This document shows positions 1 to 46,653 of a DNA stretch of 64,000 nt, piece by piece. This stretch comes from Boletus sp. NGJ (lineage: Eukaryota > Basidiomycota > Agaricomycetes > Boletales > Boletaceae): the NCBI GenBank assembly GCA_019096195.1, contig JAGTXK010000227.1:1-64000 (forward strand). Reading direction: 5' to 3'. How positions within the stretch are numbered: position 1 is the stretch's first letter; the number at the start of each line of letters is the position of its first letter. The notes under the pieces are model-generated. The model had not been told where the DNA came from. It saw nothing but the letters and a program-made list of their open reading frames with translations, and ran no database searches. Position numbers and translations under genes: made by a program.

Positions 1-355
1 CACATGGCGCATGTGCGCGCTGTCTATAGTACGACACACCTATCAACTGAGCAGATGCTCTCATGGCGCATCGGCGTGTTTGTCGTATAAATGTGAAACA
101 TGTGTCTTGTTGTTGTTGCTTATTTCACACGCACATGCGCCATGCGCGCATGTGCGCGCTGTATAACTACACTCAACATATTCCTCGTTTTCATCTGTTC
201 ATCGTTTATGCCGCAGTCGTCGTTATCAACACTCGATTGTTCATGTTTTATTGCGATGTTGTTGTGGACGCGCACATGCGCCATTGGCGCATGTGCGTGG
301 TTTGCTATGTTGATGTTACCTGTACCCTATGGTAGCCCTTACCCAATTAGATTAG
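1..355. repeat. Subtelomeric repeat, distal copy
   Basis: This block closely resembles 7203-7590, sharing the stretch from the CTCAACATATTCCTC region through CCCTTACCCAATTAGATTAG. It contains palindromes: a perfect 12-bp inverted repeat with a 3-nt spacer at 271-297 (arm CGCACATGCGCC) and an imperfect relative at 130-156. Small frames through it look incidental. It is cut at the window edge on the left and joins a 5'-truncated element A copy on the right at about 356-360. I see no coding function. Confidence 0.75.
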
Positions 356-427
356 ATCTAAAATTTCCGCTGCGTCTATCTCCGCTCTCCCACGTTATAT
401 TAATGGTCCGTGCGCGACTCTTTCTTG

Positions 428-435
428 TATAAATA
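428..435 (+). promoter_or_regulatory. TATA box of element A end repeat (copy 1)
   Basis: TATAAATA lies 41 nt upstream of the ribozyme start. The same octamer recurs 42-43 nt upstream of the ribozyme in the other three A end repeats. Start sites about 30 nt downstream would place the RNA 5' end just before the ribozyme. That start is inferred. Confidence 0.6.
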
Positions 436-468
436 CAGGTAAGAGTTATGAAATACTTTTCTCTATTC

Positions 469-545
469 GCCAGAGGTCTGATGAGTCCCCGGACGAAATA
501 GGTGGCAATGGAAGCGGTCGCCCCATCGCCTATTACCTATCTGGC
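469..545 (+). ncRNA. Type I hammerhead ribozyme (element A, copy 1)
   Basis: The conserved core CTGATGA and GAAA flank stem II (GTCC/GGAC, loop CC). Stem I is open and formed by GCCAG/CTGGC plus AGGT/ACCT with a 2-nt bulge. Stem III starts with ATAGG/CCTAT and continues as ATGG/CCAT. A15.1-U16.1 and H17 (U, at 534) are in place, so cleavage is predicted between 534 and 535. Hammerheads of this kind are known in Penelope-like elements. Confidence 0.88.
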
Positions 546-600
546 ACCATCCCACTCCTATCCCCCTCGCACAGCTCGCTTCGCTCGCTGTGCTCGGCCC

Positions 601-612
601 CCCTAACCCTAA
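601..612 (+). repeat. Telomeric CCCTAA tract between element copies
   Basis: Two CCCTAA units sit between the 3' end of the first A copy and the start of the B copy. The C-rich strand is on the plus strand, as expected at a left chromosome end. Confidence 0.85.
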
Positions 613-1079
613 GTGCTAGCTACGGCTAGACACCGCACGGCGAAGGCGATCACGTGACTTGGCACGTGACCTGCTATTGGCGCACATCCCCTAGCCTAAC
701 ACTGCGTATCCTTGTGCGGCGTTAACCCACTGTAGTAATTCCTAACGCCACTGCCTTGACTGGTACGCGTTATGTGGCCACCCGGCCCTACTACTAGTGT
801 AGCGATCGTGGTCAATTTCCAATGTCACGTGACCAGTTAACTAACGAGCCGCGGGGGTTGCGGCTGACTAAGCGTTCACCGGGTATAACGCGGTCGGTTA
901 ATAGCCGACACGGCACACCAATGACACGTGATTGTGGGGTCTGAAAGCGACTGCGTGGGAGAAATTCCTTAGTATGGCGGTCATAAGTCCTGAAAAGGAA
1001 ATTTCATGAGCCAGTCTGCCCAGGACAATACAAAATCATGGTGAGGTGTACATAAGCCGGTTAGTATGTCCTAAGGTGG

Positions 1080-1134
1080 TGTGGGTTTAGGGGTGTGCGC
1101 CCCTACTGATGAGACCAAAAGGTCGAAACCCATG
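1080..1134 (+). ncRNA. Type III hammerhead ribozyme (element B)
   Basis: Stem III (1080-1086 with 1128-1134, 7 bp including wobbles) is the open stem. Stem I is a closed hairpin, TAGGGG/CCCCTA with loop TGTGCG (1088-1105). The core CTGATGA is at 1106-1112. Stem II is GACC/GGTC with loop AAAA (1113-1124), then GAAA at 1125-1128. A15.1 pairs with U16.1 (1086) and H17 is U (1087), so cleavage is predicted between 1087 and 1088. Every core position fits the consensus. The topology differs from the type I ribozymes of family A. Confidence 0.85.
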
Positions 1135-1286
1135 ATCGGGCCTTTAGTGTAGATAAGCACTAGGGTGGTAGCTAAGGCTATACACCGCCGGCGTTTGGTT
1201 AACGACCGGTAGACAATATCTCTAGTGTGACCCAAAAAGGTAATCCCTTGCCGAGGCAACAGCGTTATCGCCTTACCGCCGGTAAC

Positions 1287-1319
1287 GCCTCGCCTCGCCG
1301 CTTCGCGGCTCGGCTCGGC
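1287..1319 (+). other. 3'-terminal hairpin of element B
   Basis: The arms 1287-1301 and 1305-1319 pair as GCCGC/GCGGC at the apex, then two further GCC/GGC helices separated by symmetric TC/TC internal loops. CCCTAA begins two bases later. An identical hairpin sits at 1642-1674 in the B fragment, again directly before CCCTAA. Confidence 0.7.
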
Positions 1320-1320
1320 T

Positions 1321-1328
1321 CCCTAACC
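1321..1328 (+). repeat. Single telomeric unit between B and the next A copy
   Basis: CCCTAACC joins the end of B to an A copy that starts inside its end repeat. Only about one unit remains. Confidence 0.7.
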
Positions 1329-1606
1329 GGAAAGATCCGAGTGTCACCGGCAAGATCCGGCTTTAATCTCCGCTGCGTCTATCTCCGCTCTTCTCACGTT
1401 ATCACTGATGGTCCGTGCGCGTACTCTTTCCCTGTATAAATACAGGTAAGAATCAAGAAATTCTTTTCTACTATTCGCCAGAGGTCTGATGAGTCCCCGG
1501 ACGAAATAGGTGGTGTTGGAAGCGGAGGCTCCAACGCCTATTACCTATCTGGCCCCCCATCCTACACATATCCCCCTCGCTGCTCGCTTCGCTCGCAGCT
1601 CGGCCC
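1329..1606 (+). mobile_element. 5'-truncated copy of Penelope-like element A (copy 2)
   Basis: The sequence matches the A end repeat from GGAAAGATCCGAGTG to its 3' terminus. It is diverged from copies 3 and 4 and holds its own TATA box (1435-1442), hammerhead (1477-1553) and terminal hairpin (arms 1579-1583 and 1595-1599). It is followed by CCCTAA repeats. Confidence 0.8.
1477..1553 (+). ncRNA. Type I hammerhead ribozyme (element A, copy 2)
   Basis: The core, stem I and stem II match copy 1. The inner part of stem III is GTTGGA/TCCAAC, replacing ATGG/CCAT of copy 1 and TGAG/CTCA of copies 3 and 4. These paired changes keep the helix. Predicted cleavage is between 1542 and 1543. Confidence 0.88.
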
Positions 1607-1620
1607 CCCTAACCCTAACC
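1607..1620 (+). repeat. Telomeric CCCTAA tract
   Basis: Two and a third CCCTAA units lie between the end of A copy 2 and a 55-bp fragment of B. Confidence 0.85.
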
Positions 1621-1675
1621 TATCGCCTTACCGCCGGTAACGCCTCGCCTCGCCGCTTCGCGGCTCGGCTCGGCT
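1621..1675 (+). mobile_element. Terminal 55-bp microcopy of element B
   Basis: This fragment repeats 1266-1320 exactly or almost so, ends in the same terminal hairpin, and has CCCTAA repeats on both sides. It reads as an extreme 5' truncation: only the 3' hairpin end was added before telomere repeats resumed. Confidence 0.7.
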
Positions 1676-1689
1676 CCCTAACCCTAACC
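1676..1689 (+). repeat. Telomeric CCCTAA tract at the 5' end of the full-length A element
   Basis: Two CCCTAA units plus CC directly precede the GGTTAACTTAGG start of the first long end repeat. Confidence 0.85.
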
Positions 1690-2170
1690 GGTTAACTTAG
1701 GAACCTAACGGTGGCACACCCCCGGCAAGGGGTGAGAATAAATTACGTAAGTGGTCTAGACCGATCCCGGAGATAACCGAAAGAAAGCATCGGACCGATA
1801 CCCGACCGGCCCGACTCGGCTACTGCGCCACCCGGCTTCGGCAAATTTAATTACCGCGAGCCGTGAGAGAATTCTCACGCAGAAGCGCAACCGGAAAGAT
1901 CCGAGTGACAACCGGCAAGATCCGGTTTAATTTCCGCTGCGTCTATCTCCGCTATTCACACGTTTCACTGATGGTCCGTGCGCGGTACTCTCCCTATAAA
2001 TACAGCGTGAGTACCAAGAAATTCTTTTCACTATTCCGCCAGAGGTCTGATGAGTCCCCGGACGAAATAGGTGGTTGAGAGCTGGTCGCCCTCAGCCTAT
2101 TACCTATCTGGCCCCCCATCCCACACTATCCCCGCTCGCACTCTCGCTTCGCTCGAGTGCTCGCGCCCCC
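1690..2170 (+). repeat. 5' end repeat (pseudo-LTR) of element A
   Basis: It matches 6695-7170 almost base for base. From left to right it holds GGTTAACTTAGG, tandem GATCCG-containing motifs, a TATA box (1995-2002), the hammerhead (2038-2112) and the terminal hairpin (arms 2138-2143 and 2155-2160, loop 2144-2154). Confidence 0.85.
2038..2112 (+). ncRNA. Type I hammerhead ribozyme (element A, copy 3)
   Basis: The core and stems are as in the other A copies, with inner stem III TGAG/CTCA. Predicted cleavage between 2101 and 2102 would leave an RNA whose new 5' end lies 327 nt before the first in-frame ATG of the reverse transcriptase. Confidence 0.88.
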
Positions 2171-2428
2171 CTAACCATACTTGTGAGTACCTCTCCATCG
2201 CATCTTCGCCTCCACCAATGTCTCAGTCCGCCACGCAACGCCGCTGGTACCTCCACGGCCAATCTCCTCCGCGCCTCTGTCGCCCCTCCACCAGGCCCCT
2301 GTCTTCGGCGTCAGGACGCGTTTGAACGTGGTCCAGGAGGATCAAGGACCAGTACGTCGTCTCTGACGCGGCTCACCGCTCGTCACTCCGCTTTACAGGC
2401 GGCCAATTCGGTGGGCGAGGTGATCGCT

Positions 2429-5400
2429 ATGGTCCCCGCCCAGTTCCGCGCTGTCCTCCGCCCGCTCCTTGAGCAGATCGCCTCGCGGCTTACCCACAGC
2501 TCGAGGCGGCGCGGTCCCACCTTAGCCAAGTGGGAGGCCCACTCTCGCGGCCGGGACCTTCCCCACCCTGGTGCTCGCATCCAGGCGCCCTGCGGTCGTT
2601 CTGACCAAAGGCTGGGAGGACAGCGAGGAAGGGTCGCACCTTTCGGTCCACCCTCTGCTTCTGGTCACCTTGCGTACCAGAAGCAACTCCTTGCCGCTTA
2701 TGTGGATGCTAAGCGCAAGGAGGTCGCCGCCCTCGAGCGCGCCTCACAACCAGCGCAGCTGCTGGACATCGTCCACCCCGTCGTCCAAGAGCACTACAAG
2801 AGGCTCAAGGGAACTCTCCGTATCCCTGAAACGGTAGAGGATGCGGATGGTAACATTCACATCAGACGGTGGGTCCAGTCGACCATCCCGTTCACCATCT
2901 GTCGCCAGGTGCTACAGGACTGGGTCGTGTACGCTGACCGGATTAAGGCGATCATCGTATCGTCTACGGTAGCCGCGGAAGTGAAACGAGCCGCGAAGAA
3001 GCGTACTCAGGAGGCCGCTGACGTTGATATGCAGGATGCGACCGGTCCAACCGGACCGTCCATTCAATCGGCAGTGGACCGTGCAGTCAACGCGGCGGTC
3101 AAGCGGCTTACGCCGAAAGTCGGTGGTGTAAGTGTCTGTCGTTTCTGTACCGGTAAACAGACACTAACTGCTGTTGAAGCCACTTCGTCCCTCCGGCCCT
3201 GGTCCCCAGGGTCATCAACAGCATCCCCCCCGCAAAAGCGCGCACAAGTCAGCGCGTATTTCAACCGGAGGTCGTATCCCGCGTCGTCCTCAAGCAACGG
3301 GAAGAGGAGGGAAGAGCAACCGCGGAGGAGCGCCTCGATCTCAGGCGCAGGCCCGCACCCCCTCCGGCCCCTCATCGAAAGGCCAAGCACATGGGGCCAA
3401 GGGAAAGGCTGCTCGCAGAGGGTAGAGCGCTCATCCGGGAGCAAAAGAAGGAGCTTAGGAAAGGACTCCGTAGAAAATAGTGTAGATGACTTTATGGACA
3501 TTCCTACACTCAATGCGATTTGTGATTCGTGTTTGGACTCTTTAATGAGTGACTATGAGTACCCCAAGTACTGGACATTACCGGATGAGATTATAGACTT
3601 CGCCTCACCTTTGCAGGCCATAAGTTGCGTGATTCGACATATCCCTCTTAAGTTTGTAGAGGCTGGCCGATTCAAATCACGTATACATACAGGCCCAGGA
3701 GTTTCTATACCGCGGGAGTTAGAACTCGACCTTGGTATCGGTATGAAACATATGTTTCACCAACCGCGTCAGACGCAATTGATCACTGACGCGTATCTAG
3801 ACTTCGTAAGACGCTTTAGATGGAAGGTCAAATTTATATTAGAGGGAGAAACTAATACTACCTATGATCCCGATTACGATGTGTCTCCGCCCAGTAAGGC
3901 GGACCCACCCGTATTACCGTTTTATTGCGAACTCGCTCTCAAGCGAGGGCGTGCATACGTCCACAACGTCACTGCCAATGCCCCGCTTGATGGCCTTGTC
4001 GACGGCACATTCAAACCGCTCGGTCCCAAGGTAAACGAGTTACGCAAGTTCATGTTGGATCACGACTATGTGATCACTCCTACCGACAAGAACCTCGGCT
4101 TAGCGGTGTCAGAGCGGACCTGGATTATAGAAAATACCCTCGCATGTTTGTCAAACGAGCGCGAATACAAACGCCTCGACAACGCTGCTGCGAAACAGAT
4201 CCTCGATAAAAAATGTAACGAGATGATCTTACTCTCTCAGCGGTCGGACATATATTGCTGGAAATATGGTTCCATAGATGAATACTTAAAGCATCTTGTT
4301 ACCGCCCCTACGGCAGATCACCATATACCGCGCTTTTATGGAATCCCAAAGATCCATAAACAACCAGTCAAATTCAGGCCCATCCTACCCTGTCATAGCG
4401 CGATCCAGAATCCGGCCGCCAAATTCTGTAGTAAATTGCTCAAACCTCTAGTTGATGAGGCGCTAACTGTCATCCATGGCAGCAAAGATTTAGCGATAAA
4501 ATTGAGCCAGCTCCACCTGATTCCGGGTGCCAAATTCTACATCGTCACCGGCGATGTAGTTGCTTATTACCCCAACATTCCTTTGGAATTGTGCTTGGAT
4601 AGAGTCTTCGGCATGTTTGTCGAATGGGTCTACCAGAATGAAGGGGACGAAAATGAGCATTGGAACGGATTGTCGGTGCATAACTTTGTTATGTTCTTTA
4701 ACGACTGTTTACGGGTTGGTAACACGGAGCTGCTGACACAATTCAATGGGGAGATATTCCAACAACTAAACGGCCTAGCAATGGGCGTCGCAGACTCGCC
4801 AGACCTCGCTAATTTGTATGGCTGGTTCTGCGAAAAACGTGATGGAATTCTCAATCACCCAAGGATTGCCTATTACGGTAGGTATATCGACGATTGTCTC
4901 GGCATAGTGTACGCAAGTAGCCCTCAGGAAGCGCTTGCCATTATGACCGACAATGTAAAAATCGATCATTGTGTCATAACGTGGGACGTCGGCAATGCCC
5001 AGCCTTTCCTGGATATGCTGCTCTATAAGGATAATAGAGGTAAATTGCAGCATAGACCATACCAGAAGGCCAAGTCGCTCCACCAGAGAATTCCTTATGT
5101 CTCAGGTCACCCGATAGATGTCAAACGAGGTACATTCTACGGTGAAATGAGTCGTCTCGCCACGCTGAGTAGTACGTTCGAAAACTATCTCGATGCGCTA
5201 GATTGGTTGGTTTCCATCTATGTGATGCGTGGATATGACGAGGCGCTGTTGTTGTCTTGGAGACGCAATAAACTCCAGGAGCGATGGAACAATCGCTTAA
5301 CGACCAAATCCGATGTCGCAGCGGCAAGCGCGGCCCTGGTGCTCAAAACCGAGTACAACACAGCATGGGAGTTATTCTCCGTCACTAAACTAGGAGACAC

Positions 5401-5902
5401 GATCCTAGGATATATGCGATCTTGGCTGTATAAAGCCGAGCGTATGGAATTCAACATAGAATTCCCCCCGGAGCCAGTTGGCTATACGGATGACGTGGAC
5501 CGGAAGCCCCGGCTCTGTATAGAGTCTGTGCGTGCTGATGGTACACCGACTGAGGTCCCTGACCTCCGGCGTACGGATATCCTAGACCGTCGAGTAATCG
5601 TGTCGCGGAAACGCACCACGCAACTATTCGACCTAACAAATCTTTGGAAAAAGATCGTGTTGGAACGTTTAGCAGATAAGGGTACCGGTGAACTGGATTC
5701 CATCCATCCAGATGACCAACCAGGTCATGCCGGCCCGCCTGAACCCGCTCTACCAGCAAAATGGCGTCGTCTGCAATCAGGAAAAGTGATTGATCTAGAA
5801 GACGACGTCATCAATGTACAGCGGAGATCTGCTTCCCCGGTTTTTGCTGGGGACACTGCTGACCTAATGGCAGAAACACTCTTACGAGTCTCAAAGCCAT
5901 GA
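2429..5902 (+). CDS. Penelope-like reverse transcriptase, no GIY-YIG domain
   Basis: The frame is open from 2075, inside the ribozyme, but the first in-frame ATG is at 2429, giving about 1,157 residues. Upstream the frame has only a TTG start. An ATG at 2218 in another frame opens a 35-codon frame that may be an upstream ORF or a spliced leader exon. Reverse transcriptase landmarks in order: TDKNLGLAV near residue 552, IPKIHK with FRPI near 640-650, GDVVAYYPNIP near 709, GLAMGVADSPDLANL near 782, YIDD at 819-822 and a later FLD motif. These are the Penelope-type motifs rather than LINE or LTR ones. The C-terminal third after the palm and thumb has no GIY-YIG endonuclease pattern. This fits elements that prime at existing telomeric 3' ends. 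The protein would copy its own RNA onto the chromosome end. Confidence 0.9.
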   Translation: MVPAQFRAVLRPLLEQIASRLTHSSRRRGPTLAKWEAHSRGRDLPHPGARIQAPCGRSDQRLGGQRGRVAPFGPPSASGHLAYQKQLLAAYVDAKRKEVAALERASQPAQLLDIVHPVVQEHYKRLKGTLRIPETVEDADGNIHIRRWVQSTIPFTICRQVLQDWVVYADRIKAIIVSSTVAAEVKRAAKKRTQEAADVDMQDATGPTGPSIQSAVDRAVNAAVKRLTPKVGGVSVCRFCTGKQTLTAVEATSSLRPWSPGSSTASPPQKRAQVSAYFNRRSYPASSSSNGKRREEQPRRSASISGAGPHPLRPLIERPSTWGQGKGCSQRVERSSGSKRRSLGKDSVENSVDDFMDIPTLNAICDSCLDSLMSDYEYPKYWTLPDEIIDFASPLQAISCVIRHIPLKFVEAGRFKSRIHTGPGVSIPRELELDLGIGMKHMFHQPRQTQLITDAYLDFVRRFRWKVKFILEGETNTTYDPDYDVSPPSKADPPVLPFYCELALKRGRAYVHNVTANAPLDGLVDGTFKPLGPKVNELRKFMLDHDYVITPTDKNLGLAVSERTWIIENTLACLSNEREYKRLDNAAAKQILDKKCNEMILLSQRSDIYCWKYGSIDEYLKHLVTAPTADHHIPRFYGIPKIHKQPVKFRPILPCHSAIQNPAAKFCSKLLKPLVDEALTVIHGSKDLAIKLSQLHLIPGAKFYIVTGDVVAYYPNIPLELCLDRVFGMFVEWVYQNEGDENEHWNGLSVHNFVMFFNDCLRVGNTELLTQFNGEIFQQLNGLAMGVADSPDLANLYGWFCEKRDGILNHPRIAYYGRYIDDCLGIVYASSPQEALAIMTDNVKIDHCVITWDVGNAQPFLDMLLYKDNRGKLQHRPYQKAKSLHQRIPYVSGHPIDVKRGTFYGEMSRLATLSSTFENYLDALDWLVSIYVMRGYDEALLLSWRRNKLQERWNNRLTTKSDVAAASAALVLKTEYNTAWELFSVTKLGDTILGYMRSWLYKAERMEFNIEFPPEPVGYTDDVDRKPRLCIESVRADGTPTEVPDLRRTDILDRRVIVSRKRTTQLFDLTNLWKKIVLERLADKGTGELDSIHPDDQPGHAGPPEPALPAKWRRLQSGKVIDLEDDVINVQRRSASPVFAGDTADLMAETLLRVSKP

Positions 5903-6651
5903 TACAAGGTAGTATCACCCGAGAAGGGGCGATGATACCGAGGAGTCCCTCTACCGTAGGACCTCAACTCACAGCTGGGTCGCTTCGGCCACCTGGCGAG
6001 CCTGACCTGTAATGGGGAAGGTACCCGTCCGCTCCGGCGGCGGGCTAAGTTTGTGCGGGAGAACCGGTCCGTAAGCGGTAAGAAACTACCGCTGAGGTTG
6101 AGCCTCATTATCACCGATGCCATCGCGTACTCTGGTGAATAGGAAAACCGGAGAGACATTCTTGTCCGGCAGGTCGGCCTAGTAGAGAATGAAAGGGTTG
6201 TTTGAGAGCCTCAACGAAGCCTCTCCATACAGCGCCTGGCTGGAATCCTGGGCAACCAGGGGGTCCGAACAGTGCAATACTCAGTAGGAATCCAACGTCC
6301 ACCCTCGGGGGGATGACGGACGAAGAGTCCGGCCACAGACGGCGTGTAACGTATGTGCAAGCTTACGATAGCTTTAGACCTGAGTATACTCGAAACGCTT
6401 TGCAGTGTTTTATTCGTTTTAGTGACGTTAATCGTACCACCAGTATGGTAAGGTGGGAAGCACTCCCTCGAATCGAAAGTGCGAACGCAGGCAGTGCGAG
6501 ATCTTCGGCCCGACAGGTTCTAGATAGGACCGAAGACTGGCTCAATACTATGCCAGATCGCCTGAATAACCTTACCCTAACGTAAGGATCGGTGCTATAG
6601 CCTAGCCCATACGCGTAACTCATTGGGTCTTTAGGGACTAACCTAACTTTT
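5903..6651 (+). other. 3' region of element A, non-coding
   Basis: About 750 bp follow the stop codon. I see only short incidental frames. The last 60 bp contain degenerate CCTAAC motifs before the regular CCCTAA tract begins. No ribozyme core is visible here. Confidence 0.55.
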
Positions 6652-6694
6652 AACCCCTAACCCTAACGTGCTAACCCTAACCCTAACCCTAACC
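6652..6694 (+). repeat. Telomeric CCCTAA tract, longest in the window
   Basis: Roughly six CCCTAA units, with one interruption by GTG, separate the element A body from its downstream end repeat. Confidence 0.85.
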
Positions 6695-7170
6695 GGTTAA
6701 CTTAGGAACCTAACGGTGGCACACCCCCGGCAAGGGGTGAGAATAAATTACGTAAGTGGTCTAGACCGATCCCGGAGATAACCGAAAGAAGCATCGGACC
6801 GATACCCGACCGGCCCGACTCGGCTACTGCGCCACCCGGCTTCGGCAATTTAATTACCGCGAGCCGTGAGAGAATTCTCACGCAGAAGCGCAACCGGAAA
6901 GATCCGAGTGACAACCGGCAAGATCCGGTTTAATTTCCGCTGCGTCTATCTCCGCTATTCACACGTTTCACTGATGGTCCGTGCGCGGTACTCTCCCTAT
7001 AAATACAGCGTGAGTACCAAGAAATTCTTTTCACTATTCCGCCAGAGGTCTGATGAGTCCCCGGACGAAATAGGTGGTTGAGAGCTGGTCGCCCTCAGCC
7101 TATTACCTATCTGGCCCCCCATCCCACACTATCCCCGCTCGCACTCTCGCTTCGCTCGAGTGCTCGCTCC
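6695..7170 (+). repeat. Downstream end repeat (pseudo-LTR) of element A
   Basis: This is nearly identical to 1690-2170, including the TATA box (6998-7005), ribozyme and hairpin (arms 7141-7146 and 7158-7163). It is followed directly by CCCTAA repeats. It could be the remainder of an earlier, truncated A insertion onto which the full element was added. Confidence 0.8.
7041..7115 (+). ncRNA. Type I hammerhead ribozyme (element A, copy 4)
   Basis: It has the same sequence as copy 3. Predicted cleavage is between 7104 and 7105. Confidence 0.88.
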
Positions 7171-7171
7171 C

Positions 7172-7202
7172 CCCTAACCCTAACCCTAAACTAAACCCTA
7201 AC
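7172..7202 (+). repeat. Innermost telomere-like tract
   Basis: CCCTAACCCTAACCCTAAA then CTAAACCCTAAC forms a slightly degenerate tract. It is the boundary between the retroelement stack and the older subtelomeric repeat. Confidence 0.8.
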
Positions 7203-7590
7203 ACATGTTCAGCGTTTATGCCACATGTGCGTCGTGAAATATGCAACAACATCAAGATCGTTCATGTTTCATTGCGATGTTGTTGTGGACGACAAACACG
7301 CCGATGCGCCAATGAGCGCATGTGCGTCGGTTTGCTATGGTTGATGTTACCTGTACCCTATGGTAGCGCGCATGTGCGCGCAATGTAGATTAGACTCCCT
7401 CAACATATTCCTCGTTTTCATCTGTTCATCGTTTATGCCACAGTCGTCGTTATCAACACTCGATCGTTCATGTTTTATTGAGATGTTGTTGTGGATGCGC
7501 ACATGCGCCAATGGCGCATGTGCGTGGTTTGCTATGTTGATGTTACCTGTACCCTATGGTAGCCCTTACCCAATTAGATTAGATCCCTTA
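7203..7590. repeat. Subtelomeric repeat, proximal copy with internal duplication
   Basis: It matches 1-355. A roughly 105-bp module (GTTCATGTTT... to ...ACCCTATGGTAGC) occurs twice, at about 7259-7367 and 7465-7565. The second module holds a perfect 12-bp inverted repeat, 7498-7509 and 7513-7524. Unique sequence starts at about 7590. Confidence 0.75.
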
Positions 7591-7870
7591 AAATATGTAC
7601 ATGTCAGATGGGCCCAGCCATGTTTTACGCATCTCATATATCTTGGGCCTGTCACGGTATCATCAGGTGTTTTGCAAGCAGGCTCTCCGTATGCTCCAGG
7701 CGAATGTGACCACATGGGCTTGTTGTCCCTGACACTGATTTTTACTAGCAAAAATGATAAATCAATGTCGTTCACCAACACTGATCCTAATTGACTGTCA
7801 GTGATTCGTAGTCACATCGGCACTGATAACCTGATTTTTTTGCACTGCAAACAAGGTCCCCTACTTCCCA
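7591..7870. other. Junction region without a recognised gene
   Basis: This is the first non-repeated sequence inside the subtelomere. I see nothing beyond short frames. A 17-nt string in it (TTGGGCCTGTCACGGTA, about 7643) recurs near 50090 without longer similarity. Confidence 0.4.
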
Positions 7871-7879
7871 TAGTGTTAA

Positions 7880-9378
7880 GCTACCTACATGGGCTGTGGT
7901 CACTCCCCTTGCGTGGTCAAACAGTGGTCAGCAACTTTTTGCTCTCTCCCGCGACCAGAAAGTCGGCGCGTTTGATGCGTCCATTGGGAGCCAACTCGCC
8001 GAATCACAACCCCATGACGGCAAAGACAGCAGCCGCTCTATTGCCTTAGCCACCAATGGCAAGTTCATTGCTACCTTTGCAGGTACTTCCATCTTGTTCC
8101 TGGACACATTGACTCTGACTCGAATTGGCCTTGTCGAAGCCAGTGAAAAAACCCATTCAGTTTCCATTTCACCCGATAGTACCCGCCTTGTGACTGGACG
8201 ATTCGATGGTAAAATCGTCATTGGAGATCTTGGAAAGATTCTCCCGGAGTCTTATGGACCATTCAATGTAAGTATTTGTGCTTATATGCATGTCGAATAA
8301 GCCCCATTCCATCCCCCACATTGACAAACTACATAGCTATCTACTCGCGAACCAGTAGAACAAGACGAGCAGCCTTTGACATCGGGCGACCACAACGGCA
8401 AAATGTCTAGCTCCACCCCAGTAGGATTTTGTCATTCCGTCACCAAAATGTTTGTGCTGACTCCGTCGTTGTGCACGTACAACAGGAAGTTCCTGGGGAA
8501 CCCGATGGAGTTGAGTCCAAGGGACACAGTGAAGACGACAATGATCTTCTTGAGGTATCACTTCGTTTACTTCCCCTTTCAACCGAGTTCTCACAATAAC
8601 ATAGCGCGAGGTGTCGTCGAGCACGCCAGCCCAATTTGACTACGACGAAGTGGTGGGTGATTGCTTTCGTCTCCTCTTGCTTCCGTGTTGACACTGCTCG
8701 AGTCATTGTCCCCGGAATCTTCTGCTGATGCCCAAGCAGATGAGACACCACCAGTTGGCTCATCTAATCCCATGTCGCAATCACCGGATTTGCCACAAGT
8801 GACCATCCTCCCAAAGGCACATTCAGAGAAAGATATGGACACTGTCAAGTCACCGCGAGGCCGCTCCATATTTACAAAGTGGCTACAGAGGAAAAGTAAC
8901 AGGGCCCCCACTTCACCTAAGCCTGGCCGACTTTCCAGAAAGTCGCGCGGGCCTGCCGATCCTCAATCACATTCCCACTCGCTCGCAGGAGTCAATACAA
9001 CAAAGGGACCTTCGTGGATGGCTGCGGCTCAACCTACGCCAGTGAGTGCTCTTCCTGATACACGATTAAATGCAGTGTACTAACATATCATTCCAGAGTG
9101 GCCGCGAGATCGTTTAGAAGACAAAAGGTATGTTGCGCTACGACTTTGTATGCAAGTACTCGTCACACGTTACAGAATAAATTATCTGCCAAGGCTGTTG
9201 TTCCGAAACAACCGAAGAAAGATACGTCCCATAGTGGACAATGCTCTGCGGGCGTAAGCAAAGCCGGCCCAGTGCGTTTTTTTTTTTTTTGTGGTAGAAC
9301 TCGTCACGACAGCTCACGTTCTGTTAGGTGCAGCAAGAGAATAATCCGTCTCAACCCTCGGCCGCGAGGGTCCACATA
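7880..9378 (+). pseudogene. WD40-repeat protein fragment (C-terminal half)
   Basis: An exon at about 7896-8268 encodes at least two WD40-like blades (VTPLAWSNSGQQLFALSRD; FDGKIVIGDL) and ends at a good GTAAGT donor. Later pieces, at 8661-9060 and 9098-9378, are Ser/Pro/Arg-rich and end with a VAARSF-type motif resembling the tails of agaricomycete NACHT-WD40 proteins. No P-loop or NACHT part is visible upstream, because the repeat boundary lies only 300 bp away. It may be the end of a gene cut by subtelomeric turnover, or a short WD40 gene. Exon joins between 8270 and 8660 are unresolved. Confidence 0.45.
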
Positions 9379-39938: not shown

Positions 39939-41744
39939 TCATCCCCTCTCCACAATCCCCCAACCATGCGACACCCTCCACAACACGTCTCCCACATATC
40001 GACTAAACGTGCTCCCCTCCGTCCCCACCACCGCCCACGCCCTACCCATCACCAGCGCATCCACAATCGGGGTTAGATGTCCCGCCAATTGCACCCCATC
40101 ATACCCGTTCCGCAACCCCTCAAGATGTGCCGTCTCTGTTGCGAATGACCCCAGAATAAACGTGCACGGAAACGCAAGTATCAAAGGCGCAAGTAGTGGA
40201 TCGTTGAGGCCATCTGGAGCATCGGTCGCAATGAACAGGGGCACGTTGAGGCGGCGGAGGCTGGGTGTTGTATGGAGCCGGCTGCGGCAGGGGAGCTTTG
40301 GGGAGAAGTTGTCAGGGAGGGGAGGCAGTCCTGGATGGGGTACTCGCAGACTGGGCATGTCTGGGGGTATCTCTGGTGGATCCACCATATCGTCGTCGTC
40401 GTCGCCATCGCCGTTACCTTGGTCGTTGCCATCCGTCGCCATCATCCGGCCCATCCTCGACAAAACGCTCTTCTCGAGCCCTAACGCCGTCTGCATATCC
40501 AGTTCCAGAACGTCCCGAATCAGTTTCCACCAAACGAGCCTCACATTCGCCCGTGCCCCCTTTTGAAAACGACCATCCCCCACACGCACATGCGCACCCA
40601 CATACGTCCCCCCAAGCACCTCCCCAATCCTCTCCGCAGCCAACGTCAACACAGCATTCGCAAACACCATGTGCCGCCTCACCTCTCCCCGTATCCGCCT
40701 GTTCTCCTCCTTCCGCAGTCGGAGTCGTGAGGAGCCAAAGAGCGTCCCGAGTTGGATGAGACGCTGCGGCGCCGCGGCGAGCGTGTCTATGGGAATGGTA
40801 TGGAGGTACTTGTCGCCCTCCCGCGCGGGTGCAGGTGTATCCACGAACTGGTACTCGTATGGCTCTGTATCAGGGAGGTGGAGCGTCTCGTTGTGTCGCA
40901 CGCCCAACCATTCTGTTCTCCATGCCGCGGTCCCGTTCGACGCGCGTACGAGCGCCTGCTGGGCCGCGATTGGTCCCAAATCCACCAGCCACGCCCACGG
41001 GACGAGCGTATATGTCATGTGATCTGCACATTCATCCGGCCGTGGTACGTCCACTGGGATGCGCGCACAGTGGACACGCCCTTGCCGTTTATCACTGAGC
41101 CGGAGCATCCGGGCGAGTGTGCTCGAGCGGACGTAGCGCAGGGTTTTGGGGCCAAGGCGAGCGGGTGGGACGAGGAGGGTGCGGTTGAGGAGACGTGCAA
41201 GTGTAAAAGCGTTTTCTAGGGCGATACGTTGGTTGTGGAGGCCGCTGTGAGGGAGGTAGGCGAGGTAGGTGGTGGTGACGTCGGCGCGGAGGGTGTGGAG
41301 ACGTGTGTCGGGTTCGTCGAGAATGTCGAGGGTAATGTCGAGTTGGTGTGAAGTAGTCAGATCCTGGTATGGCACGTGCAGCACAGCGAGAGGCGCGTCA
41401 GGCTCTTCCAAAGTGGTGCGCTGGGATGCGTCGACTATATAAGACCGAATCAGCGAGACCAAGAGAATACGCACAGACGGGGAGAGATGACTGTACCTCG
41501 TCTTGAATAGCCAATAGGCGCACGCGAAGCAGACGAGCACACCGCACGCCAGGAGCGCCAGGAGCATCGCCAAACGACGCGGGCGGCGGTGCGGTACATG
41601 AAGGTACACGCGCGAGGATGGATCTGAGGAATGGCGCAGGTTGGACCCGGGACGGGAACTACGCGGTGGACGCATGCGGTAGGCGCCTTTCTCGTCCGAC
41701 ACCGAGGGCGACTGGAAGGCATACCTCGCTGTGATGGACATCAT
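39939..41744 (-). CDS. O-fucosyltransferase-like type II membrane protein
   Basis: A single exon of 601 residues starts at the ATG at 41744. The cytosolic tail is basic, then a transmembrane segment (LAMLLALLACGVLVCFACAY) anchors a lumenal domain. GDP-fucose O-fucosyltransferase features are HSGLHNQRIALENAFTLARL near residue 170, VGAHVRVGDGRF in the middle (donor-binding HxRxGD) and TEGSTFSRYVGDVLWRV near the C-terminus. An acidic Asp-rich insertion (GNGDGDDDDDMVDPPEI) lies between the last two. The enzyme would act in the Golgi or ER. The family is widespread in agaricomycetes but acceptors are unknown. Codon use is more GC-rich than in neighbouring genes and there are no introns. Confidence 0.82.
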   Translation of the reverse strand: MMSITARYAFQSPSVSDEKGAYRMRPPRSSRPGSNLRHSSDPSSRVYLHVPHRRPRRLAMLLALLACGVLVCFACAYWLFKTRYSHLSPSVRILLVSLIRSYIVDASQRTTLEEPDAPLAVLHVPYQDLTTSHQLDITLDILDEPDTRLHTLRADVTTTYLAYLPHSGLHNQRIALENAFTLARLLNRTLLVPPARLGPKTLRYVRSSTLARMLRLSDKRQGRVHCARIPVDVPRPDECADHMTYTLVPWAWLVDLGPIAAQQALVRASNGTAAWRTEWLGVRHNETLHLPDTEPYEYQFVDTPAPAREGDKYLHTIPIDTLAAAPQRLIQLGTLFGSSRLRLRKEENRRIRGEVRRHMVFANAVLTLAAERIGEVLGGTYVGAHVRVGDGRFQKGARANVRLVWWKLIRDVLELDMQTALGLEKSVLSRMGRMMATDGNDQGNGDGDDDDDMVDPPEIPPDMPSLRVPHPGLPPLPDNFSPKLPCRSRLHTTPSLRRLNVPLFIATDAPDGLNDPLLAPLILAFPCTFILGSFATETAHLEGLRNGYDGVQLAGHLTPIVDALVMGRAWAVVGTEGSTFSRYVGDVLWRVSHGWGIVERG

Positions 41745-42187
41745 AGTCAACTTTGCTTGTTCTGGACGCGGTCAAGTAATTGTTTGCAGCTGTACTTGAA
41801 TTCCAAAGGCTTTGGACCAAATATGGTAATACCTGCAAAGGAAGGAAGAGTAATATGTCCACGAAGAGTGCGCTTTCTCGAGTTGGAGGCATCTCAGCAT
41901 GCTCCGAGAGGTGCAATTTCAGCCAAATTTTAGACCCTCCTCAATGCCAGGCCGTAGAGTGATAACTTTCACTGGATCGCGTTGCTACCCGTGGATGCTC
42001 GAATAAGTAAGACAACCCTCTTACTGTCCAACGAGACAACGTAGTGGACAACCAATGGAGTCCCACGAACCAACGACAAGTATATATACAAGGGGGATAC
42101 GAGGGAAGAGAAGGAGAAAAATGCATGCGTAACGGATCACATCCGTGGGGCGTGTCTAACCACACCCGCGTCCGAAACCCGTCCCTC

Positions 42188-46653
<4,466 letters not shown>

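Follow-up and report, generated by a model that had tools for sequence, protein, structure and literature searches.

The left part of a Boletus sp. NGJ contig (GenBank assembly GCA_019096195.1, contig JAGTXK010000227.1, positions 1–64,000, together termed the window) carries pieces of two elements, A and B, with short CCCTAA tracts at most of their joints. This raises the question of how such an array was assembled. We consider it likely that the locus is a pile of endonuclease-lacking Penelope-like elements (PLEs, element A) and a non-coding companion (element B) near a fungal chromosome end, built up by the cycle proposed below.

Organisation of the locus

Within the 64-kb window, 18 of the 22 plus-strand CCCTAA occurrences fall in positions 1–7700. 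The sequence CCCTAACCCTAA is present in eight copies, all on the plus strand and spanning 601–7189, compared to a shuffling expectation of 0.00. Self-comparison revealed four A ends and two B ends in uniform orientation within 1–7594, so that the stack of A and B pieces in the original prediction is real and comprises six attached pieces, arranged head to tail:

1–361 (no strand): subtelomeric satellite repeat, abutting A1 without CCCTAA; 144–364 is 92.6% identical to 7366–7594
362–600 (+): A1, 5′-truncated A end; TATAAATA at 428, hammerhead core at 478, stem-loop at 565–597
613–1320 (+): element B, 708 bp, non-coding with 12–19 stops per plus-strand frame; type III hammerhead and terminal stem-loop
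1325–1606 (+): A2, 5′-truncated A end; TATAAATA at 1435, hammerhead core at 1486, stem-loop at 1575–1603
1621–1675 (+): second B copy, last 55 bp only; stem-loop at 1642–1674
1690–2168 (+): left A repeat (pLTR-like); TATAAATA at 1995, hammerhead core at 2047, stem-loop at 2133–2165
2177–6654 (+): body of element A, single copy in the window
6693–7171 (+): right A repeat; TATAAATA at 6998, hammerhead core at 7050, stem-loop at 7137–7167
7202–7594 (no strand): two units of the subtelomeric satellite repeat; 7206–7408 and 7423–7596 are 78.8% identical

Self-comparison yielded no further A or B copies in the remaining 56 kb, and a comparison of 1–7700 with the rest of the window gave a single 17-bp match, aside from the 100 bases by which query and target overlap. 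The DNA beyond the inner satellite has no second copy in the window. The left window edge consists of satellite and lacks a terminal CCCTAA array. The locus probably lies near a chromosome end, whose existence we infer.

Element A and its repeats

The two 504-bp A repeats (1676–2179 and 6681–7182) are 99.2% identical, with 4 differences, and share 82.8–86.9% identity with A1 and A2. In self-comparison, the matches of A1 and A2 extend over 362–612 and 1325–1618, respectively. A1 is 87.2% identical to A2 and 82.8% to the right repeat, while A2 shows 86.8–87.2% identity to the other A copies. The array thus holds three A lineages that are 13–17% apart and truncated at different points, which argues against a simple tandem duplication.

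An interrupted CCCTAA tract at 6655–6694 (+), inside or at the end of A, is the sole tract with at least two adjacent CCCTAA units that is not preceded by a stem-loop. Since it lacks a stem-loop and near-identical repeats flank the body, the boundary drawn earlier between a full A and a separate A end repeat was probably misplaced. Judged from the sequence, the body and the right repeat probably form one unit; the A unit measures about 5 kb. The count of six pieces is unchanged by this.

A TATA box and a hammerhead core are present in every A end (4/4), with TATAAATA located 50–52 bp upstream of the core in all four; elsewhere in the 64 kb, TATAAATA occurs once more on the plus strand and never on the minus strand. 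The core reads CTGATGAG..CGAAA in all four A ends. A canonical type I hammerhead can be drawn for A, yet the best computed fold is more stable by 8.5–9.4 kcal/mol. The Rfam hammerhead matched the two A ends compared with it at E values of 0.084 and 0.058 in a restricted search, in a type III register and not in the drawn type I form.

Two further features belong to the A unit:

2054–5902 (+): open frame of 1282 codons, first in-frame ATG at 2429; PLE-like reverse transcriptase motifs at 4337–5131
5903–6654 (+): long 3′ region of the A body, without Rfam match

An Rfam scan of 1–9000 up to an E value of 1 recovered only the hammerhead of B, and no group I or II intron or other RNA in 5903–6654. 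Predicted RNA structure of the 3′ region (z −3.0) was rejected as a sign of function, as the coding control 4100–4780 gives a z of −3.5 (20 shuffles each).

The frame is the only plus-strand frame above 200 codons in the A body. It contains the motifs YGIPKIHK, DVVAYYPNIP, GLAMGVADSP, RYIDD and FLDMLL, which we take to be those of a PLE-type reverse transcriptase. Comparison with Pfam and PDB sequences gave no reverse transcriptase match. Pfam reached its cut-off for no family on the frame or its pieces, and no accessory genes were recognised. The NCBIfam Drt3a reverse transcriptase matched weakly (E 0.0023, 17 bits, cut-off 200). A possible reading of A as a terminon, a giant unit with accessory genes, was dismissed on the basis of the single frame and the Pfam result. 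For the GIY-YIG endonuclease, Pfam gave nothing up to an E value of 10 in the final 263 codons, and the whole frame showed no GIY-YIG-like pattern; this negative carries little weight, as Pfam overlooks the reverse transcriptase too and might miss a divergent endonuclease. A structure predicted for 486 codons, with no relatives supplied, had a mean pLDDT of 34.4 and was unusable.

In a search for relatives, the A reverse transcriptase region gave 18 pattern matches in prokaryote contigs, none of them confirmed, and none in viral contigs. Exact-match patterns for the A-type stem-loop (viral contigs) and the hammerhead (viral and prokaryote contigs) had no matches. As these collections hold prokaryotes and viruses, the misses are uninformative on fungi. 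An endonuclease-lacking PLE is the most fitting reading of A, with the family assigned from sequence motifs. The original prediction had named a Coprina-type element of this kind, primed on the telomeric G-rich overhang. Order, orientation, 3′ ends and the missing GIY-YIG match fit this proposal; its family assignment is not backed by Pfam or PDB.

A stem-loop shared by A and B

A single stem-loop design, marked by UC/UC internal loops, recurs at all six A and B ends on the plus strand, 1–4 nt ahead of CCCTAA (6/6). The predicted common orientation, with 3′ ends against CCCTAA, is hence borne out at every end. The design was found nowhere else on either strand of the 64 kb, nor on either strand of second-order Markov surrogates (30 of the whole window and 200 of the local region 1–7700). 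The pattern was drawn up after the folds had been inspected and four distinct sequences stand behind the six ends, so the 6/6 adjacency is not an independent result. Of 200 shuffled sequences each, 0 equalled or bettered the stability of the stem-loop for A1, 12 for A2, 2 for A3, 1 for A4 and 14 for B; an individual stem-loop thus does not always stand out.

Pairs of the middle stem were aligned by hand and numbered from the inner end. Pair 1 is invariant. Pair 3 is A-T in A1, T-A in A2, C-G in A3 and A4, and G-C in B. Two-sided changes were also observed at pair 2 across the four sequences, and at pairs 4 and 5 among the three A sequences only. When the B end was compared with the A1 end, 0 of 200 surrogates scored as high; for the A4 end the number was 9 of 200.

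In an Anolis PLE, reverse transcription starts at a stem-loop downstream of the hammerhead (PMC11167929). A literature search by titles and the first parts of abstracts, in a set without the primary 2007 PNAS, 2014 and 2017 MBE papers, returned no description of the stem-loop found here. The ending common to A and B looks like a useful new detail.

Element B

Apart from the stop codons, element B is characterised by two features:

1080–1134 (+): type III hammerhead ribozyme (Rfam RF00008, 43 bits at a gathering score of 48.5, E 6.8e-7)
1287–1319 (+): terminal stem-loop with UC/UC internal loops

The best computed fold surpasses the drawn hammerhead in stability by 2.5 kcal/mol. The second copy was previously described as a 55-bp B end; this length is correct for the copy itself, whereas the identity to the first copy (1266–1328 and 1621–1683, 100%) spans 63 bp and includes an 8-nt tail. 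Predicted RNA structure of B was rejected as a sign of function, with z values of −2.7 (plus) and −3.8 (minus) against −3.5 for the coding control 4100–4780 (20 shuffles each). Kinship of the B body to the A repeat, the A 3′ region or the satellite was likewise discarded, as 97, 195 and 197 of 200 surrogates scored as high.

For the origin of B, descent from another autonomous PLE family that has its own enzyme, with B as its truncated 3′ end, comes close to an even chance. Repeat-only truncated copies are common at the locus, as A1 and A2 show, and B begins directly after CCCTAA like both A repeats. Against this origin, B lacks a TATA[AT]A motif and has no detectable likeness to A beyond its end, the B body/A repeat score being equalled in 97 of the 200 surrogates mentioned above.

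As B is non-coding, bears a hammerhead and has only the terminal stem-loop in common with A, it may instead be a SINE-like rider on the enzyme of A. We tentatively put forward that B could be a telomere-specific parasite of this type, a 'telomeric retrozyme', which would use the A reverse transcriptase through the stem-loop and CCCUAACC. The stem-loop would then be a portable tag, and template jumping via the 8-nt tail would extend the arrays. A plant (LTR) type retrozyme was also considered in view of the non-coding sequence and the single type III hammerhead; it was rejected since no direct repeats were found flanking the long B copy.

Junctions and assembly of the array

The tracts at the joints are as follows:

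601–612 (+): CCCTAA tract, 12 nt, between A1 and B
1321–1328 (+): CCCTAACC tract, 8 nt, whose last 4 nt also match A (overlap with A2)
1607–1620 (+): CCCTAA tract, 14 nt, between A2 and the second B copy
1676–1689 (+): CCCTAA tract, 14 nt, between the second B copy and the left A repeat
2169–2176 (+): CCCTAACC, 8 nt, between the left A repeat and the body
7172–7201 (+): 30-nt CCCTAA tract that includes a variant stretch, between the right A repeat and the subtelomere

The original prediction held that telomere repeats are restored after each attachment. Inter-copy tracts of 12, 8, 14, 14 and 8 nt do not agree with this, as hundreds of bp are expected of a telomere; at such lengths, template jumping or a capping of ends that were almost bare is no less plausible than capping with restored telomeres. 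For comparison, the Ustilago maydis telomere measures about 500 bp by one assay and 300–400 bp by earlier estimates (PMC6167521, in part). Telomere attachment at the junctions agrees with the CCCTAA-facing 3′ ends, with the exception of the outermost junction, which is free of CCCTAA.

It is possible, at clearly less than an even chance, that a single event produced the array, or much of it, as a concatemer. On reaching the truncated 5′ end of a template, the reverse transcriptase would have switched to the CCCUAACC tail of a further RNA, and the tracts would be RNA-encoded tails instead of former telomeres. The short tracts favour this account, also when set against the average of about 500 bp in the basidiomycete U. 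maydis (PMC6167521, in part). CCCTAACC after a stem-loop also separates the left repeat from the body, indicating that an RNA can encode this 8-nt tail. Four of the five inter-copy tracts end in one register (..TAACC), but the AACC of A itself, where A2 is broken off, accounts for part of this agreement, and not every junction is an independent case. Moreover, interstitial telomere tracts may lose length by shrinkage or trimming, and short telomere-repeat stretches are also described as truncating rotifer terminons (PMC6431247, in part). Among the titles returned for template jumping, none named a PLE.

Recombination between chromosome ends (break-induced replication or end-to-end exchange) is an unlikely source of the array as a whole. 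By this account, pieces attached elsewhere were brought together, and telomere priming took place in the past at other ends. The joint of the outer satellite and A1 (340–385) points in this direction: it lacks CCCTAA, shows a short AT-rich overlap and involves a satellite 92.6% like the inner one, and is thus unlike telomere addition. However, in five of the six A/B joints the distal piece ends in the stem-loop and CCCTAA, which recombination alone does not predict; the exception is the joint of body and right repeat.

Comparison with known systems

Gladyshev and Arkhipova reportedly described endonuclease-lacking fungal PLEs, Coprina, in 2007. For all sources cited in this section, the statements refer to the parts consulted. 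Telomere attachment is published for endonuclease-lacking PLEs of fungi and rotifers (PMC3846280, PMC6431247, PMC12477314), and PLEs adjoin telomeres in the basidiomycete Agaricus bisporus (PMC7473861). A is a further case of this published behaviour of fungal PLEs. It resembles Coprina-type elements in that it gave no GIY-YIG match, is truncated at the 5′ side, has 3′ ends facing telomere repeats and lies beside a subtelomere-like repeat (PMC3846280). It differs from them in that its body lies between direct 504-bp repeats, whereas protist and fungal PLEs are said not to have the terminal-repeat organisation of other PLEs (PMC3846280), and in a stem-loop common with a non-coding companion, which the consulted part of PMC3846280 does not describe.

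Bdelloid rotifer terminons share with A a hammerhead, putative in A, near the 3′ end followed by reverse-complement telomere repeats, head-to-tail chains and short telomere stretches at truncations (PMC6431247). Terminons reach up to 40 kb (PMC6431247) and A about 5 kb without recognised accessory genes; at the present locus, a separate stem-loop and not the hammerhead directly precedes CCCTAA. Drosophila HeT-A, TART and TAHRE also form one-way head-to-tail telomere arrays with a 3′ promoter reading into the downstream neighbour, a property suggested for A by its TATA boxes. In contrast to A, with its CCCTAA-facing ends and PLE-like motifs, they are non-LTR elements with a poly(A) tail and are the sole components of their telomeres (PMC5537684). 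Retrozymes are, like B, non-coding and hammerhead-bearing, and need the enzyme of another element, as B may. B differs in its one type III hammerhead (type I in animal retrozymes), in that no flanking repeats were found, and in its telomere-complementary end (PMC9695139, PMC7229834).

Proposed cycle and implications

The preferred reading, a pile of A with B as companion, takes from this one locus the order, orientation and junctions of the copies, the stem-loop, the positions of TATA box and hammerhead core, and the open frame. Transcription, recognition, priming, trans-mobilisation and the chromosome end would complete the cycle as follows. From the TATA box of the 3′ repeat in each A copy, transcription would run toward the centromere and into the next copy, as in HeT-A. 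The A RNA would end with the hammerhead, then the stem-loop and then CCCUAACC. The A reverse transcriptase would recognise the stem-loop, and the 3′ end of the telomeric G strand, or that of an earlier cDNA, would pair with CCCUAACC and prime copying. Copying would usually stop early, so that the 5′ end facing the tip would be truncated. At the free cDNA end, a few telomere units would be added as a cap, or the next RNA would be joined on immediately. B, with the same stem-loop and CCCUAACC, may be copied by the enzyme of A.

PLEs are related to telomerase. In the portion of the literature covered, RNA choice and priming of endonuclease-lacking PLEs at chromosome ends are inferred, not shown. 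A compact, covarying stem-loop on the coding element A and on the otherwise unrelated non-coding element B is a concrete candidate for what the enzyme recognises; together with CCCUAACC it offers a short substrate for a test-tube assay.

Organisation of the array

The window opens with 7.6 kb of repeats in a one-way series, made up of a Penelope-like (PLE-like) retroelement (A), a non-coding element (B) and a subtelomeric satellite.

Pieces of the array, from left to right
1-361: satellite, left
362-600: A1, 5'-truncated end of A, then CCCTAA
613-1320: B, then CCCTAACC
1325-1606: A2, 5'-truncated end of A, then CCCTAA
1621-1675: last 55 bp of B, then CCCTAA
1690-2168: left A repeat (A3), then CCCTAACC
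2177-6654: body of A, 4.5 kb, then an interrupted CCCTAA tract
ending at 7171: right (second) A repeat (A4), then CCCTAA
7202-7594: satellite, right, followed by DNA that bears host genes at a distance

The motif CCCTAACCCTAA occurs eight times in the 64 kb (expected 0.00), always on the forward strand and inside the array, which bears out the one-way A/B/CCCTAA series originally predicted for positions 1-7590. Neither element nor the satellite turned up again when the array was compared with the other 56 kb of the window. The satellite has a unit of about 217 bp with self-complementary GCGCATGTGCGC-like stretches, and is present as two units on the right and a partial set on the left. The host genes (39939-41768 and 44891-45583, both on the reverse strand) encode a GDP-fucose O-fucosyltransferase-like protein and an SNF2-family helicase. 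A fungal host, as predicted, is plausible, judged from the element type only.

Shared terminal stem-loop

Computed folds feature a stem-loop ahead of CCCTAA in all four ends of A and both ends of B, built from three helices separated by two UC/UC internal loops and closed by a UUC loop. A scan of the window for this design returned exactly these six places and none in surrogates, a count that is descriptive because the pattern was composed after inspection of the folds. Taken alone, the A2 and B stem-loops are not exceptionally stable (equalled by 12 and 14 of 200 shuffles). The middle helix has between 3 and 7 pairs; in a manual alignment that starts at the inner end, its third pair is A-T in A1, T-A in A2, C-G in A3/A4 and G-C in B. 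Pairing is kept despite the changed letters, and this evidence is independent of the choice of pattern. With the stem-loop excluded, B showed no similarity to the repeat or the 3' region of A. A recognition signal common to an enzyme-coding element and a non-coding rider would look like this, and LINE/SINE pairs with common tails are a precedent. Alternatively, B may be the remnant, cut short, of another autonomous family.

Limits and coding capacity of element A

Four positions distinguish the two 504-bp stretches, 1676-2179 and 6681-7182. Among tracts with at least two adjacent CCCTAA units, the stem-loop is absent only before 6655-6694, between body and right repeat; two single-unit matches also lack it (one at 6575, the other at 7196, in the proximal tract's variant end). 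In the simplest reading, body and right repeat form one unit, to whose 5' end a 5'-truncated copy, the left repeat, is attached. Element A then has the partial-tandem layout that PMC11167929 describes for PLEs, although according to PMC3846280 this layout is not shared by protist and fungal PLEs. The original prediction instead took left repeat and body as the unit and the right repeat as separate, which likewise gives six pieces and may be correct.

Coding capacity is seen in a 1282-codon open frame of the body (2054-5902; the first ATG in frame is at 2429), whose correctly ordered motifs we take to be typical of Penelope-like reverse transcriptases. Comparison of the frame with Pfam and PDB sequences gave no reverse transcriptase match; part of the reverse transcriptase region (4730-4927) matched the bacterial antiviral reverse transcriptase Drt3a of NCBIfam weakly (E 0.0023, far below the cut-off), and structure prediction without relatives yielded no usable model. 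No GIY-YIG match was found in A, a weak negative, given that the reverse transcriptase also escapes detection with that library. Because profile searches gave no confirmation, A is named PLE-like, the family being assigned from motifs plus behaviour. The predicted endonuclease-lacking PLE agrees with A in behaviour and in the missing GIY-YIG match.

A candidate 52-bp intron (GTAAGT...CTAAC...AAG) lies within the frame at 3128-3179. If spliced, the frame stops at 3425 with an Arg/Gly/Lys-rich tail; unspliced, it continues into the reverse transcriptase. The long 3' region (5903-6654) has no Rfam match and contains a 130-codon open frame at 6193-6585.

TATA box and candidate hammerheads

In all four A ends, the TATA box TATAAATA (428, 1435, 1995 and 6998, forward strand) sits 50-52 bp ahead of the hammerhead core CTGATGAG...CGAAA; elsewhere in the window it occurs once more on the forward strand and never on the reverse. 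Each of these ends can be arranged as a canonical type I hammerhead, but the best computed fold differs from it, being 8.5-9.4 kcal/mol more stable. Rfam hammerhead matches in the two A ends tried were weak (E 0.084 and 0.058) and in type III register. In element B, Rfam places a type III hammerhead at 1080-1134 (E 6.8e-7; 43 bits, under the curated 48.5). Its canonical fold lies 2.5 kcal/mol above the best fold, and all 200 shuffles of this stretch folded less well. The hammerheads of A and B are predicted ribozymes.

In all four copies of the A hammerhead region (469-545, 1477-1553, 2038-2112 and 7041-7115), a computed alternative fold pairing UAGGU with ACCUA beats the canonical hammerhead. 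This fold is a possible switch.

Under either reading of the unit, the TATA box of each A repeat faces the next piece centromere-ward and would be promoter-like. HeT-A is described as having a promoter that likewise points at its neighbour (PMC5537684).

Origin of the stack

For endonuclease-lacking PLEs, priming from the telomeric G-overhang is published (PMC6431247), and Penelope-like elements near telomeres are reported for Agaricus bisporus (PMC7473861). Tracts between copies measure 12, 8, 14, 14 and 8 nt; in U. maydis, one assay gave a mean telomere length of about 500 bp (PMC6167521). With tracts of 8-14 nt, the junctions do not show the predicted restoring of telomere repeats after attachment. 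Either the enzyme jumped from RNA to RNA through CCCUAACC, or the ends were nearly bare at capping, or interstitial tracts shrank. An 8-nt tract also lies between left repeat and body, so that RNA can encode such a tract, in favour of jumping. Plain tandem duplication does not account for the series, since the A copies fall into three lineages 13-17% apart.

Within 601-2176, four of the five tracts between copies end in one register (..TAACC), which a fixed register of telomerase or of the template would produce, although some of these junctions are not independent of one another. The outer satellite adjoins A1 without CCCTAA, and this absence points to at least one putative recombination or end-joining event there.

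Taken together, the array is a real, well-ordered case of a known phenomenon, and the part worth following is the covarying stem-loop common to A and the non-coding hammerhead element B.
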